Source: a virus. Taken from it: a stretch of 23,423 bases of DNA. Shown here in pieces: positions 8,173 to 20,785 of the stretch. The notes beneath the pieces are model-generated. The model did no database searches, was not told the DNA's origin, and saw nothing but the letters and a program-made list of their open reading frames with translations. The position numbers and the translations under genes are program-made. Where the stretch lies: IMG/VR virus record IMGVR_UViG_3300044731_000773, positions 1 to 23,423 of that record; one strand, given 5' to 3'. The number at the start of each line of letters is the position of its first letter. The first letter of the stretch is position 1.

Positions 8173-9255
8173 TTAAACCAGCGTGATGCCTTCGACCATG
8201 GCGGTGGCAAACTCTTCTTGCACCACGTAGGCCAAATTCATGCTGTTAAACTCTTGCACCTCGTCTTTCGCTGGCCAGTCGCGTTGTGTTCTGCGCACGC
8301 TCGAGTCTTGGTAATACACAGCCAAATTAGACAGCGGCGTAATGACGATGGTGCCGTTCGGGAAAAACGGCGGGCTGAAGGTTGGCAAGCCACCAAAGTC
8401 GGAGGTCACTACACCATTAATCGCCGCCTTTTCGGTTGGGGTGTTGCCGTGGGTTTCGTAAAACTTGTCATGTGCATTAACCAGCAAGTTATCACCCACC
8501 AAGGCCACCAAATCACCGCGATAACGGAAGGCCGCAGACACCACTTGCTTAATGTCATGAATCGCTTCCGACAAGTTTTTGTAGGTGCCAGTCGCGCCAA
8601 TGGACACACCAGAACCGACGTGTTGCGAGGTGCTGTTAAATGTGCGGATTTTTTCCAACCAGCCAACGTTCAAGTCTTGCAGGTTGGCATTGGTGACGAT
8701 GTTAGTCGCTGCCGCTGCTGATGTACCGTACCAGCCGGTTACCAGCATATCGTTGACAATCGCCTCTCTGACGACTTGCATATACAAGGCTTCAAAGTTG
8801 GGGAATTTTGCCCAGGCATCAATATCAGCGTAGGACAGCGCCACGTCAAAGTTGGTTTGTTTGGTGGTGTAGTCCTGGTTGTCTTGTTGGTTAAGACGTT
8901 TAGGCACACGCTCGTTAGAGCTGGTGTTGGTACGGCTGGCCACGCGACCGGTTAAGCCTAAAATGACTTTTTGACCCGTGGTTTCTGTTACAGGCACCAT
9001 TGGCAGCTGTGAGAAAAACGGATTTGCCAATTGAATGGCTTTAGGCTGCAATGTTTGCTGCATTTGCGGCGTGGCGGCAAATAATGCGGCTGCGCTTGGG
9101 TTTGCCTGCAGTTTTTTGAAAATAGCCACCGCCTGTTCTGGCGTAGCCATAAAGTTTTGGCCGATGTCAGGATCGCGGGCAGTAATGCCGTAAGCCATCG
9201 CGGTTTTTGCAAACAAAGCGTTGACTCTGGCGCGGGAATTAATTGATAAGTTCAT
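8173..9255 (-). CDS. N: Major capsid protein gpN
   Basis: A 360-residue protein of the P2 gpN family, length as expected (P2 about 357). Recognisable blocks are the start (RARVNALFAKTAMAYGI), the region LPMVPVTETTGQKVILG, the DYTTKQTNFDVALSYADIDAWA block and the LVNAHDKFY motif. It forms the icosahedral shell after cleavage of its N-terminus by the gpO protease. The ATG at 9255 has AAGGAACACTC upstream. It sits between O and M as in P2. Composition matches the other head genes. Confidence 0.95.
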   Translation of the reverse strand: MNLSINSRARVNALFAKTAMAYGITARDPDIGQNFMATPEQAVAIFKKLQANPSAAALFAATPQMQQTLQPKAIQLANPFFSQLPMVPVTETTGQKVILGLTGRVASRTNTSSNERVPKRLNQQDNQDYTTKQTNFDVALSYADIDAWAKFPNFEALYMQVVREAIVNDMLVTGWYGTSAAAATNIVTNANLQDLNVGWLEKIRTFNSTSQHVGSGVSIGATGTYKNLSEAIHDIKQVVSAAFRYRGDLVALVGDNLLVNAHDKFYETHGNTPTEKAAINGVVTSDFGGLPTFSPPFFPNGTIVITPLSNLAVYYQDSSVRRTQRDWPAKDEVQEFNSMNLAYVVQEEFATAMVEGITLV

Positions 9256-10173: not shown

Positions 10174-10349
10174 GTTTCACTCTAAATCGGGTGGAATTGA
10201 CGCACAGAGTAACGCTTTGCACCGCTGCTGCAATACCGGCCTTTCCTACCTATACCTATAAGCCAACTATAGGAATTTTAAGAAAATGTTGCGGGCGTTT
10301 TGCGTTTTTAAACACCTGATAATGAGTGTAAACCCATTTCAGGAAAACC
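10174..10349. promoter_or_regulatory. Divergent late promoter region between O (minus) and P (plus)
   Basis: 176 bp between divergently read O and P, where P2 has two Ogr-activated promoters. Visible elements are a dyad CCTATA-N7-TATAGG (10253-10272), a minus-strand -10-like TATAGT at 10271-10266, and an ACAC-N10-GTGT dyad at 10312-10329. If the minus-strand start is near 10260, that dyad is centred about 60 bp upstream, close to the -55 position of Ogr sites in P2. There is no good -35 at the expected distance, which fits activator dependence. The plus-strand promoter for P is not clear. AGGA precedes the P start codon. Confidence 0.6.
10312..10329. promoter_or_regulatory. ACAC-N10-GTGT dyad, copy 1
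   Basis: 18-bp imperfect dyad with left half ACACCTG. It shares AAACACCTGA with the copy at 15023-15040 and the outer ACAC/GTGT plus one ACACCTG half with the copy at 14704-14721. It lies in the O/P divergent region and is a candidate binding site for a phage regulator. See the findings for caveats. Confidence 0.4.
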
Positions 10350-13620: not shown

Positions 13621-13839
13621 CTACTGGGTTTTAGTCACCAGCTGTTTCATGCCATCCAATACCGACTCTTGACGCTCGATAATGGGGTCTATCAAGCAGG
13701 GCAGTTCGTTGATGTTGACAGAACAACTGTCATCATGGCCATTCATTAAGCCAGACAACGCCCGCAACGCGCATAACTCGCTGTGCAGAGTGTCTATTAA
13801 ATCGTTTAAGTACGATTGTTCCAGCGTAATAACAGCCAT
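13621..13839 (-). CDS. Hypothetical small protein downstream of the antirepressor
   Basis: 72 residues (MAVITLEQSYLNDLIDTLHS...MKQLVTKTQ), mostly helical and acidic, with two Cys near residue 40-50 (DSCSVNINELPC). The ATG at 13839 overlaps the TGA of the Bro gene by one base (TGATG), which implies translational coupling; a GTG one codon earlier is also possible. Being co-translated with an antirepressor suggests a regulatory partner, but no domain is recognised. Confidence 0.65.
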   Translation of the reverse strand: MAVITLEQSYLNDLIDTLHSELCALRALSGLMNGHDDSCSVNINELPCLIDPIIERQESVLDGMKQLVTKTQ

Positions 13840-14411
13840 CACGCACCGCCCTGCAATAGCATTTTCCCGGAACTGGGAAAAAGGTCGGTTTGTTTAACAT
13901 CCTTGCCGAGCAGCTGCAGGTCGGGCATTTTACGACCGACCAAATTACACAAGTCCCGCAACTCATCCACCAACAGCTTAAACAGCATGGCGTCAGTGGT
14001 CAGGGTTAAACGGGCGGTGATTTCCACGATCTGTTTGGAATAGGCCAGCCGGTCTTTGCCTTCGATAATGCCGAAGTAACCGTGCTTACGGATTTGTGGC
14101 AGGACTTCTTCACATACCCAGTTGGCGAATTCTTCGGCGGCTGGTTTGCTAGAACGGAAAATCATTTTGTACAAGGCTGGTTCATTGATAAAAATTGTCT
14201 CTCTATCGCCTTTTATGGTCTCGTGAAACGAGACCATAACCCATGTTTCAGGTATTGACCTTAGCGTATTTCCGCGCCCTGCCCACGTAATATCGAGCAC
14301 GTCACAGACATCCTTAGCGCAAAAAAACACCTCGCCGTTTTCGTCTACAGCGGTGCGAACATCAAGGTTTGAAAATTGGAATGGGTTTGCAAGTGTTTTG
14401 AATTCAGACAT
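13839..14411 (-). CDS. Bro-N domain antirepressor-like protein
   Basis: 190 residues from the ATG at 14411, preceded by GGAGACAATC. Residues about 10-115 are a Bro-N domain: LDVRTAVDENGEVFFCAKDV, then VCDVLDITWAGRG, FINEPALYKMIFRSSKPAAE and ANWVCEEVLPQIRKHGYFG. Bro-N proteins bind DNA, and in P1-like phages they are antirepressors that trigger induction by blocking the lytic repressor. The C-terminal part (about 115-190) is helical and ends DLFPSSGKMLLQGGA. A C4-type antisense RNA leader lies directly upstream, as in the P1 immI locus. A 27-nt perfect hairpin (14213-14239) lies within the coding region. Confidence 0.85.
   Translation of the reverse strand: MSEFKTLANPFQFSNLDVRTAVDENGEVFFCAKDVCDVLDITWAGRGNTLRSIPETWVMVSFHETIKGDRETIFINEPALYKMIFRSSKPAAEEFANWVCEEVLPQIRKHGYFGIIEGKDRLAYSKQIVEITARLTLTTDAMLFKLLVDELRDLCNLVGRKMPDLQLLGKDVKQTDLFPSSGKMLLQGGA
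14213..14239. repeat. Perfect 12-bp inverted repeat inside the Bro gene
   Basis: TTATGGTCTCGT (14213-14224), GAA, ACGAGACCATAA (14228-14239): perfect arms around a 3-nt centre. It encodes part of VMVSFHETIK. It contains GGTCTC, which is also found in the leader of this gene, so it could take part in the RNA control of the locus or be a protein-binding dyad. Confidence 0.6.
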
Positions 14412-14427
14412 GATTGTCTCCAGGGTA

Positions 14428-14568
14428 TTAAGTAATAAACCCGACAACCATGAGACCAAACATGGGTGCCGGACTGAACGAGGTTGGTCTACCGGGAACC
14501 CAGGGAACCGGCCAGCCTTTCGACTGCCCCGACCAGCCCGACATAACGATAGGCTGAACGTTGCGCAT
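14428..14568 (-). CDS. Possible icd-like leader ORF overlapping the C4 element
   Basis: 46 codons (MRNVQPIVMSGWSGQSKGWP...FGLMVVGFIT) that span the C4 RNA and stop 16 nt before the Bro start codon. In P1 a short ORF (icd) overlaps this position and its translation is needed for ant expression. The motif SGWSGQSKGWPVP resembles Ash/Icd-like leader peptides. No Shine-Dalgarno is visible before the ATG, because a T-run from the upstream hairpin occupies that place. It may therefore be untranslated. A 64-codon ORF in another frame (14489-14683, TTG start) is an equally weak rival. Confidence 0.3.
   Translation of the reverse strand: MRNVQPIVMSGWSGQSKGWPVPWVPGRPTSFSPAPMFGLMVVGFIT
14464..14545 (-). 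ncRNA. C4-type antisense RNA upstream of the antirepressor
   Basis: The minus-strand stretch reads like the C4 RNA family of P1, P7 and P4: a GGGCTGGTCGGGGC start, a hairpin CAGTC-GAAA-GGCTG (14526-14513), a CCGG...CCGG hairpin (14511-14492), then GACCAACC (14489-14482), which can pair back to GGCTGGTC (14538-14531) to close a multibranch fold. It lies 50-130 nt before a Bro-type antirepressor, the known location. AGACCAA at 14490-14484 is complementary to TTGGTCT at 14459-14453 just downstream and at 14619-14613 upstream, which are candidate target sites. In known systems the processed RNA represses ant translation or causes leader termination. Confidence 0.75.
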
Positions 14569-14591
14569 AAAAAAACCGCTTGAAGGCGGTT
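14569..14591 (-). terminator. Terminator-like hairpin in the C4/Bro leader
   Basis: Minus strand: AACCGC (14591-14586), loop CTTCAA, GCGGTT (14579-14574), then T to 14569. Outer arms GCGCATA and TATGCGC can extend the stem around the T-run. It sits between the leader promoter and the C4 element, so it could terminate or attenuate leader transcripts. Confidence 0.6.
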
Positions 14592-14651
14592 ATGCGCCTG
14601 GAGTATTCCGGGAGACCAATCCCAGGCACTGTATTTTGCCAGTGCATTTTT

Positions 14652-14680
14652 AGATTAGGCCCGGAAAAACCTTTTGTCAA
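14652..14680 (-). promoter_or_regulatory. Promoter of the C4/antirepressor transcript
   Basis: Minus strand: perfect -35 TTGACA at 14680-14675, a 17-bp spacer, and -10-like TAATCT at 14657-14652. Transcription would start near 14645 and read through the hairpin, C4 and the Bro gene. The -35 is consensus and the -10 is weak. An ACAC-N10-GTGT dyad lies just upstream (14704-14721). Confidence 0.65.
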
Positions 14681-14703
14681 CAAGCATTTGACGACATGAT
14701 TTT

Positions 14704-14721
14704 ACACTTAAAAACAGGTGT
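14704..14721. promoter_or_regulatory. ACAC-N10-GTGT dyad, copy 2
   Basis: The dyad is longer here: TTTTACAC (14700-14707), 10 nt, GTGTAAAA (14718-14725), perfect 8-bp arms. It sits between the C4/Bro promoter and the plus-strand gene at 14812, so a protein bound there could act in both directions. A related CACC-N10-GGTG dyad follows at 14738-14755. Confidence 0.5.
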
Positions 14722-14811
14722 AAAAACTGGGCTTTATCACCCTTTTTGTGTGGTGAATTGTTCGCGCCGCCTTGCTACAGTAACCGACATTACAATCACA
14801 CGGAATGACAC

Positions 14812-15030
14812 ATGAACAGCATCTTTCAAACCTTCGGCCTTTTCTTCGGTACCGTGATCATGGCGTTTGTATTATCGGTGTGTGTGCTGTGGTTGGTGTT
14901 GCCGTTGATTTTGTATCAAGTGCGTAATCGGCTGGATACCTTGATCAAAGAAACCCAGGAAGTGCGGTTTGCCATCAAGTATTTAGCCAACAAGATTGAA
15001 CAAACCGATAAAAAACCGCCAAACACCTGA
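14812..15030 (+). CDS. Small membrane protein upstream of the Ogr-like gene
   Basis: 72 residues. The N-terminal half (FGLFFGTVIMAFVLSVCVL, then WLVLPLILYQV) is a long hydrophobic segment of residues about 7-37, one or two spans. The rest is a charged helix (RNRLDTLIKETQEVRFAIKYL). I do not recognise the family. It is the first gene of a two-gene plus-strand unit with the Ogr-like activator. A -10-like TACAAT lies at 14791-14796, within TTACAATCAC, a 10-mer that recurs before the next gene (15047-15056). The Shine-Dalgarno is weak (CGGAATG). Confidence 0.7.
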   Translation: MNSIFQTFGLFFGTVIMAFVLSVCVLWLVLPLILYQVRNRLDTLIKETQEVRFAIKYLANKIEQTDKKPPNT

Positions 15031-15040
15031 ATTTGGGTGT
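15023..15040. promoter_or_regulatory. ACAC-N10-GTGT dyad, copy 3
   Basis: ACACCTG...GTGT across the stop codon of the preceding gene and upstream of the Ogr-like gene. Extended arms AACACC/GGTGTT (15022-15027, 15036-15041) could also form an RNA hairpin, but no T-run follows. It shares AAACACCTGA with copy 1. Confidence 0.4.
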
Positions 15041-18118: not shown

Positions 18119-20785
18119 TCAAGCCTTAAACCGCCAGCACCAAATCGATCGGTTTTCCAACCGGGATTTGACGCTGCCGTTTCCAAGGTATTCACGTTTT
18201 CGACTGGTCACCAACCAGCGGCGCAGGTCTTTGCTATCAATCGTTTCCTGCTTCATTTCCACGCACAGGCGGCGGAAATGTTCCAAATTGACGCAAATCT
18301 CCCGCTCGGGGTGGTGACTGTGGTTTAACAGGTGTTGTCCGCTGGTGACGGGTGACACCATGTCTTCGGTTTCCGGCAATGACGGACGGCTGTTGATGTA
18401 ATCGAACAGCGCCCAGAATTGCTGGACAATGGGGTGGTCCTCGTTTAACGAGGCTTGCCGGTTGACGGCCATATCCACCAGCGTGGCATGGACCTTATCA
18501 ATGGCGTTGTCGCTGATCGGCATGGCCAGTTTTAAACAATCCGCAAAGGCCATGATCTTGGCGTGGTTCTCGACAATCCTTTGCAGTTTGATGCCGGGGT
18601 GTTGTTGCAGCTGGATACGATGGCGGCGGAATGACTCGGTAAATTGCGTCATCACGGCTTCCGCTTTGCTGATGCTGTGCAGTAAAAACCCGGATACAGC
18701 ATCCACGTCCAGCATGTTCAATCGGTCTGAGGCGTGTTTGCCGTCCAGCGAGTGGTGCGATCGGTCAAACGTTAAGTGCATGATCCGCGTCATGATCGCT
18801 TCCGATGCCACAACCGGCACGTTTTGCACGATCATCAAGCCGCTTTTAAAGGTAGGTTTGCGGGTGCTGTTGTCTTGGGTTTTTTGACCGGTGACGCGGC
18901 CAAACTCGCCGTCGAACAGGTCTTTTTGCTCATCCCAGTTAAAGCGTTTGATGTGCTTGTCGTCGGCCAGCTGCTCGTTGTCGGTTTCGTTAAACACCAC
19001 CGGCAAGTTGGACACCTCTGCCATTTTGCGGGTCCGGCCTGCTAACGTTGAGCTGTTGGGGTTGAAGGATTCGCCTTCGCGGCCTAACAGCTTCCATAAA
19101 AAATCCACCATGTCGGACTTACCGGAACCAGCCTCGCCGACCACTTCTAAAAACGGATAGCTGCGGTGGTTGTGGCGGACCTGCTCCACAAACAAACAGC
19201 CAAACCACCACGACAAGGTGACCAGACCACCGACACCGAAAGCGGTTTGGTAATCGTTAAGCCAGCCATCGACCGGCGGTTTGGTGGTGAGTTTTTGCTT
19301 GATGTCGACGGTGGTTTTAATGCCGCCTTGTTTGAGTTGGAAAAACGACTCTTTATTAACATTCAGGATCCGACCGCCTTGCACCGCATAATCCGGAAAC
19401 ACATAAGCCCCGGTGGCTTTGTCATACCCGACATAATCCAGCGTGGTGACGATCTTGGGGATTTTGCCCATCCAGTGCTTATAGAGGTAATCCAGATCGG
19501 ACCCGCTGCCGGTGAATTGCGCACCGGGGGCTTTTTGCATGGCGGCTTTTTTAAAGTCACCGTGCGCACCGAAGGTTTTACCGGGGAACGGCAATTGCAC
19601 TTCCGGCGCGTGGTTTTGAAAGTTAAACCGAAAGAAGTATTGGCCATCCTCGCCGTTTTCAGGGCGTTGGAAGTACAGAAAATCCATTTTAAAGGTGGCG
19701 ATTTCTTTAATCTTGCTGGTAAAGGTAAAGGCCTTGCTTTCTGCTTTGATCGGGTCCGCATCGTGCTCTTGCGCTGCGGCCTTTTCGTATTCGGTGGCGT
19801 CGATCTTGAACGAGTAGGTACTGTTGCCAAAGGTGTACACAAAGAATGTACGCTTGGTATTGTGCCGCCACATGATTTCGGCTTTTTTGATGTAGCTTTG
19901 CGCCAGTTCTAACTTGCCCATGTACAAATACTCGGCCATGTCCTCGTCTGACAGTTTTTTGATTTTGTGCAGATCGTTCCAGTCGGCTTTTTCTTCGGTT
20001 TCTGACGATATCGCCGCGCCGACTTTTTCGCCCATCTCCCGCAGTTTGGCCGCGTGTTTTTGCAGGCAGCGCCGACCGGTGGCGTCGTTATCCAGGGCCA
20101 GTATCCATTTCACCTCTTTTTTCAGGTGTGGCTGGATGGCCTCTGTTGGAAACGTGCCGCTGGACATAATGGCGCAGGCTTTATACCCGTTAAGGTTTAA
20201 AGCAATGGCGTCCAGAATGCCCTCGCACAAATACACCCGGTCTTCTGGGTTGATCTCCAGGCCTGGAGGCTGCCACCACAAACCTTTAAACGCACCTTTA
20301 AAGTTTTTGTTGCGGCTTTCTTTGCTGCCGTCGTCCGGGTCGGTGATGGTGACATCCTCCACCAGCCGTTCCCAGTACACGGTTTTGGCGTCGTCCAGAT
20401 AAAAGCGCACGGCCGCCGTGCCTTTGTCGCCGTGCGGGTGCCAATACTTGGACTGGTGGTACCAGCCGTTGATTTTAGCCAGGTCAAAACCGCGGATTAA
20501 ATGCAGGTACGCGTCGGCGGTGGCGTTGGGGTTTTCCGGCGTGGCTTGGTATTTTTTGTTCAGGTTTTCGAATAGGTCCGGGAATAAGTCCTTGCTGGTG
20601 GCAGCAAAATTGCAATTGTTGGTGCGGTTGCACTGAATCACACCCGGCGTAGCGGTCCAGGTCCACAAGGTTTTTTTGCCGCAACTCGGGCAAACACCTT
20701 CACGCAGGTGTTCGCCACGATGCTTGGCGTTATACGGCGGCGATTGCAGGCGCTGAATGATTTGTGGGTTTATGCGGTCTAGCAT
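18119..20785 (-). CDS. Toprim primase-helicase
   Basis: 888 residues. The N-terminus has a zinc finger (Cys32, Cys35, Cys52, Cys58) like bacterial and T7-type primases. A Toprim domain follows: the CEGILDAIA motif has Glu188, and LDNDATGR has Asp232/Asp234. The C-terminal half is a P-loop ATPase with Walker A GEAGSGKS (about residue 550) and Walker B-like LPVVFNET (about 593), the organisation of phage DUF927/D5-like primase-helicases. It should make primers and unwind DNA at the phage origin. P2 itself uses rolling-circle gpA, so replication here differs. The start overlaps the ASCH gene stop by 7 nt. Confidence 0.9.
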   Translation of the reverse strand: MLDRINPQIIQRLQSPPYNAKHRGEHLREGVCPSCGKKTLWTWTATPGVIQCNRTNNCNFAATSKDLFPDLFENLNKKYQATPENPNATADAYLHLIRGFDLAKINGWYHQSKYWHPHGDKGTAAVRFYLDDAKTVYWERLVEDVTITDPDDGSKESRNKNFKGAFKGLWWQPPGLEINPEDRVYLCEGILDAIALNLNGYKACAIMSSGTFPTEAIQPHLKKEVKWILALDNDATGRRCLQKHAAKLREMGEKVGAAISSETEEKADWNDLHKIKKLSDEDMAEYLYMGKLELAQSYIKKAEIMWRHNTKRTFFVYTFGNSTYSFKIDATEYEKAAAQEHDADPIKAESKAFTFTSKIKEIATFKMDFLYFQRPENGEDGQYFFRFNFQNHAPEVQLPFPGKTFGAHGDFKKAAMQKAPGAQFTGSGSDLDYLYKHWMGKIPKIVTTLDYVGYDKATGAYVFPDYAVQGGRILNVNKESFFQLKQGGIKTTVDIKQKLTTKPPVDGWLNDYQTAFGVGGLVTLSWWFGCLFVEQVRHNHRSYPFLEVVGEAGSGKSDMVDFLWKLLGREGESFNPNSSTLAGRTRKMAEVSNLPVVFNETDNEQLADDKHIKRFNWDEQKDLFDGEFGRVTGQKTQDNSTRKPTFKSGLMIVQNVPVVASEAIMTRIMHLTFDRSHHSLDGKHASDRLNMLDVDAVSGFLLHSISKAEAVMTQFTESFRRHRIQLQQHPGIKLQRIVENHAKIMAFADCLKLAMPISDNAIDKVHATLVDMAVNRQASLNEDHPIVQQFWALFDYINSRPSLPETEDMVSPVTSGQHLLNHSHHPEREICVNLEHFRRLCVEMKQETIDSKDLRRWLVTSRKREYLGNGSVKSRLENRSIWCWRFKA

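Follow-up and report, generated by a model that had tools for sequence, protein, structure and literature searches.

The stretch of DNA analysed here (the window) is a virus record of 23.4 kb carrying capsid genes of the P2 type, with a GPO scaffold, a P2 major capsid protein, small and large terminase and a portal, together with an Ogr/Delta-like activator and a large primase; no gene on the contig was recognised as a repressor gene. An RNA module lies on the minus strand, flanked by a Bro-N gene and by a divergent small gene at 14812. The Bro-N gene starts at 14411 behind the Shine-Dalgarno sequence GGAG, has an intact frame, and matches Pfam Bro-N (E 3.6e-20, obtained on a longer frame of the gene) and the PHROG family anti-repressor Ant (E 3.3e-32). 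The features of the module, all on the minus strand, are the following, in the direction of transcription:

14652-14680, minus strand: promoter of the leader (TTGACA at 14680-14675, 17 nt, TAATCT at 14657-14652)
14569-14645, minus strand: IsrK-type leader RNA with intrinsic terminator (RF01394)
14613-14619, minus strand: a1 target TTGGTCT, located in the loop of a hairpin within the IsrK-type RNA, 7 of 7 with a'
14597-14602, minus strand: b1 target TCCAGG, forms 6 bp with b', one of them G-U
14574-14591, minus strand: stem-loop that terminates the leader RNA, with a U tract behind it, inside the isrK model match
14428-14568, minus strand: 46-codon open frame across C4, a possible analogue of Gifsy orf45, coding doubtful
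14462-14548, minus strand: C4 antisense RNA (RF01695), found with the Rfam covariance model
14499-14504, minus strand: b' site CCTGGG in the loop of C4 hairpin P3, pairs with b1
14484-14490, minus strand: a' site AGACCAA at the junction of C4, fully complementary to both a1 and a2
14453-14459, minus strand: a2 target TTGGTCT ahead of the antirepressor gene, 7 of 7 with a'
14418-14424, minus strand: CCTGGAG, containing the Bro Shine-Dalgarno GGAG, the expected b2 site
13839-14411, minus strand: Bro-N antirepressor gene, 190 aa, with Pfam Bro-N and PHROG matches

Elsewhere in the window, five ACAC-N10-GTGT dyads (14704-14721, 10312-10329, 15023-15040, 20694-20711 and 8606-8623) were observed against 0.37 expected, and none of 100 shuffles reached five. 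The dyads at 14700-14725 and 10308-10333 fall in divergent gene gaps, and the five are candidate sites for the phage's Ogr-like activator or repressor.

The sequence-only reading had described a strong promoter at the start of the module, and this description suits its perfect -35 hexamer TTGACA but not its -10 hexamer TAATCT, which matches at three of six positions and is so weak that a consensus promoter scan did not report the promoter. The pattern TTGACA-N17-TANNNT occurs a single time in the window, with 0.13 expected, and a -35-like hexamer with at least five of six matches is found at -35/-36 in 22 of the 27 isrK-C4 loci considered below. Downstream of the promoter, the isrK model of Rfam was matched with 59.2 bits (gathering threshold 50, E 1.4e-10), and the predicted fold of this RNA has a z of -2.2. 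Since the match covers 14645-14569, the terminator-like hairpin noticed earlier at 14591-14574 is indeed present and forms the 3' end of an isrK-family RNA. In the window, no match to the family c4-a1b1 (RF03163), which overlaps isrK in Rfam and is titled 'a1, b1 targets of C4 antisense RNA', was obtained at E-values as high as 10; the isrK model does match and the a1 and b1 sites are present, but the module is not assigned to c4-a1b1.

The C4-like fold proposed from the letters was recognised by the Rfam C4 covariance model at gathering level (70.6 bits against a threshold of 45, E 3.7e-12, model positions 1-87 of 87), so that the search named in advance as able to refute the proposal returned a match over the full model. 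In addition, the element sits upstream of an antirepressor gene, as membership of the C4 family leads one to expect. An alignment of 26 C4 sequences gave 27 consensus pairs, 21 of them with compensatory changes, and the single-sequence fold of the window copy reaches -39.3 kcal/mol (z -2.6). In the cmscan alignment, which has two non-standard positions, the junction closed by P1 with hairpins P2 and P3 is present; the single-sequence fold retains P1 and P2 and shifts P3. The 5' end of the window C4 (14548-14538) reads ATGTCGG, whereas most relatives carry ATGG beside the reported RNase P cleavage site; despite this the P1 stem is preserved through U-A and G-U pairs. The 46-codon frame that crosses C4, considered as a possible counterpart of orf45 or icd, gave no match in family searches. 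An open frame crossing C4 is in any case uninformative, because 26 of the 27 loci have some such frame.

Pairing between the antisense RNA and its targets was assessed across 27 isrK-C4 loci including the window, using fixed regions and comparing own with swapped partners in 5000 permutations. The isrK loci were gathered from 369 genomes of the class and have C4 just downstream in most cases; a contig scan that used the Bro protein as query yielded just two loci, and the family-wide loci came from the genome search. Four isrK matches were not counted as tandem loci: L047-L049, weak matches that lack C4 (L048 overlaps a tRNA), and L051, which has no C4 at the E-value used. For all four combinations of sites, own pairings exceeded swapped ones and no permutation in 5000 reached the observed value: a'-a1 (7.4 vs 4.6 bp), a'-a2 (6.8 vs 4.5 bp), b'-b1 (7.2 vs 4.4 bp) and b'-b2 (7.2 vs 4.5 bp). 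The sites vary among loci while own pairs remain longer, and thus they covary. The motifs named in the sequence-only reading all lie where it had placed them, and its suggestion that AGACCAA has TTGGTCT as antisense targets on both sides agrees with this comparison, in which the two copies are the a1 and a2 sites of the family. In the window itself, the a' heptamer with perfect complements on both sides was reproduced in 6 of 5000 dinucleotide shuffles, and a2 can occupy a hairpin loop (14472-14462 with 14451-14440, drawn by eye and absent from the minimum-energy fold). The weak -10 hexamer is the one feature in keeping with a locus of chance hairpins and repeats that yields no functional RNA; this explanation has a negligible probability, given two adjacent, full-length, gathering-level Rfam matches in the published order, and it is contradicted by the own-versus-swapped pairing across the 27 loci.

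About ten unrelated phage contigs (L086, L091, L092, L104, L105, L109, L164, L192 and others) share the a-type of the window, an AGACCAA flanked on each side by TTGGTCT, and have different b sites. Such sharing of an a-type among loci with differing b sites suggests combinatorial specificity. As to the b sites of the window, pairing of b' with b2 at the Bro Shine-Dalgarno was not above the swapped level, unlike the family as a whole; pairing at the ribosome-binding site is a family trend and not an Rfam criterion, and a clear b2 or a2 match is also missing in a few full C4 loci (e.g., L031, L038 and L052). The chance-level b'-b2 pairing, together with the recurrence of the same a' and flanking TTGGTCT in unrelated phages, would be accommodated by a decayed or partly inactive C4 that has lost its b2 match, represses Bro poorly in cis and acts mainly in trans against phages of the same a-type. 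We regard this as rather unlikely, as the C4 fold, terminator, promoter, a1, a2 and b1 are all retained along with an intact Bro gene and its Shine-Dalgarno.

It had also been proposed that CTCCAGG (14603-14597) might hide the Bro start by pairing with CCTGGAG (14424-14418). More broadly, IsrK and C4 might pair within one long transcript and so hide or expose the start, with little free C4 being formed. The two motifs do make a perfect 7-mer, and the minimum-energy fold of the whole window leader (-98.8 kcal/mol, z -4.5) pairs a1 with a' and b1 with b'. That same fold, however, joins b1 to b' and not to the Shine-Dalgarno, whereas CTCCAGG with CCTGGAG would join b1 to the b2 position. The masking proposal was not supported, as the 7-mer arose in 180 of 5000 shuffles (3.6%) and b1-b2 pairing is not conserved across the family (4.26 own vs 4.13 swapped), where b1 and b2 have the same sense. 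Control by folding in cis is improbable, somewhat more so than a decayed C4.

In all likelihood, the locus is a C4-type antisense switch with an IsrK-type leader that controls the Bro-N antirepressor of a P2-like temperate phage. The two RNA families, their folds, the family covariation of the four pairings, the gene family and the conserved -35 were shown by the analysis, and the window copy has the exact a-site pairings and b'-b1. The promoter upstream of the leader would yield mainly a short IsrK-like RNA whose 3' end is set by the intrinsic terminator, and read-through transcripts would include C4, which would be excised. Excised C4 would then pair through a' with the leader site a1 and with a2 ahead of the antirepressor gene, and through b' with b1, leaving the transcript untranslated or prematurely terminated, so that the prophage is proposed to remain quiet. 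The IsrK-like RNA, which bears the same a1 and b1 sites, could serve as a decoy or competitor and allow translation, and the antirepressor would then inactivate the lysogenic repressor. In this scheme, C4 processing, expected as RNase P cleavage to an RNA of about 77 nt, together with repression, the decoy action of the IsrK-like RNA and the antirepressor activity are presumed by analogy with P1, P4 and Gifsy-1.

Both c4-icd-ant of P1 and P7 and CI with seqA and seqC of P4 resemble the window system in that an antisense RNA comes out of the leader of the operon that it targets and has targets on both sides. In P1, an intervening icd/orfX is coupled to ant, while CI of P4 works on replication genes through early termination. 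The earlier comparison with a P1/P4 immunity arrangement was largely right. The P1-type tripartite order, in which icd/orfX lies between C4 and ant beside a C1-type repressor, was not found here: family searches gave no recognisable icd product in the window, and a repressor was not identified. The window system would work like P1/P7 tripartite immunity, yet it is not classed as P1-type. Among more distant relatives of the Bro gene, three loci (L010, L011 and L014) have C4, then a conserved gene of 46-47 codons beginning MNKLLTWLLS.. or MNKFLSWL.., and then Bro, an order like that of P1 c4-orfX-ant. The a'/b' logic of P1 and P7 and the RNase P processing have been summarised elsewhere (PMC5320573), and c4 and c4-a1b1 were described by Weinberg et al., 2010 (PMC2864571).

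Because the upstream part of the module is an isrK-family RNA, isrK-orf45-anrP of Gifsy-1 and seqA-CI-seqC of P4 are its nearest characterised models as much as P1 is. The Gifsy-1 locus of Salmonella likewise has a promoter, an IsrK RNA with a terminator, read-through and an antirepressor; its read-through enters the stable RNA STnc1160, and IsrK pairs with the corresponding part of the downstream RNA (PMC4825925). Moreover, the fold of the window leader resembles the inactive long-range structure A of Gifsy-1, and IsrK has already been compared with seqA of P4, and the downstream RNA with CI (PMC4825925). Activation by a short IsrK RNA of the translation of its own read-through mRNA has been demonstrated only for Gifsy-1 (PMC4825925). 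Unlike in Gifsy-1, the antirepressor gene of the window stands directly behind C4 without a convincing coupled orf45, belongs to the Bro-N family and has no adjoining antQ. Phage phiV10 (Uetakevirus), a different type of phage from that of the window, has a gene for a Bro-N 'putative anti-immunity protein' preceded by DNA that resembles the RNA module; the likeness concerns the DNA and the downstream gene. The same tandem of isrK and C4 has been listed, without target analysis, for Burkholderia cenocepacia, where dRNA-seq indicated one transcription unit (PMC4603805), and for Xylella (PMC12189769). As isrK-C4 tandems have thus been published, the window module adds a case to a known switch.

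The closest relatives of the window Bro protein (60-79% identity) are encoded by phages of the same lineage where neighbouring genes are comparable, with the same gene order and identities of 58-82% for the portal and 62-90% for the terminase. The leaders before Bro in these sibling phages differ from that of the window and match sRNA-Xcc1 (RF02221) in ten records (L002-L009, L012 and L013; E 1e-7 to 1e-13), in which this RNA stands in place of isrK-C4; further sRNA-Xcc1 loci are L055-L084. A heptamer of the sibling sRNA-Xcc1 complements one site near the transcript start and another at the Bro Shine-Dalgarno, and the heptamers (e.g., CTATAGG, CTTTCGG, CTATCGG and CTGTAAG) change in step with their targets. 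The family was present in 57 of 398 sampled Pseudomonadota genomes, from which most of the 36 loci of its pairing set were taken. Across these 36 loci, complementarity of the sRNA-Xcc1 3' half was greater within a locus than between loci, both for the upstream leader (8.4 bp own vs 5.6 swapped) and for the downstream start region (6.9 bp own vs 5.2 swapped), neither value being reached in 5000 permutations. A MAFFT alignment of the elements gave no useful consensus structure and single folds were used. Many of these folds show the C4 layout: P1 closes a junction from which P2 and P3 emerge, the P3 loop holds b', and a' lies in the junction itself.

The gene directly downstream of sRNA-Xcc1 (n=36) was Bro-N in nine cases, Rha in three, P22_AR_N in two, SymE in two and KilA-N in one, and directly downstream of isrK-C4 (n=32) it was Bro-N in five and P22_AR_N, AntA and SymE in one each; these counts are not independent, because some loci are near-identical siblings. 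SymE-like toxin genes follow both modules (L035 for isrK-C4; members such as L075 for sRNA-Xcc1), which places the switch before genes other than antirepressors as well. This association may account for the occurrence of sRNA-Xcc1 upstream of symE in Xanthomonas integrons.

sRNA-Xcc1 shares with the window C4 its place before the same Bro gene, a three-way junction and covarying antisense sites upstream and downstream, but it belongs to a different sequence family outside the C4 clan of Rfam. Published accounts present it as linked to virulence (plant) or as lying upstream of symE, without a mechanism, and a literature search of incomplete coverage found no publication linking it to C4 or to antirepressors. 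We consider it likely that sRNA-Xcc1 is a second C4-type family of antisense immunity RNAs, with targets in a leader bearing a terminator and at the ribosome-binding site of the gene that follows, which encodes SymE or one of several kinds of antirepressor, and that its exchange with isrK-C4 before the same antirepressor would change the immunity type.

Taken alone, the window module adds a P2-like phage to the known range of this immunity switch. Its relatives weigh more, as two unrelated RNA families appear exchanged before the same antirepressor, which gives sRNA-Xcc1, widespread in Pseudomonadota, a testable function. On this basis, two short heptamers would predict the immunity groups of phages.
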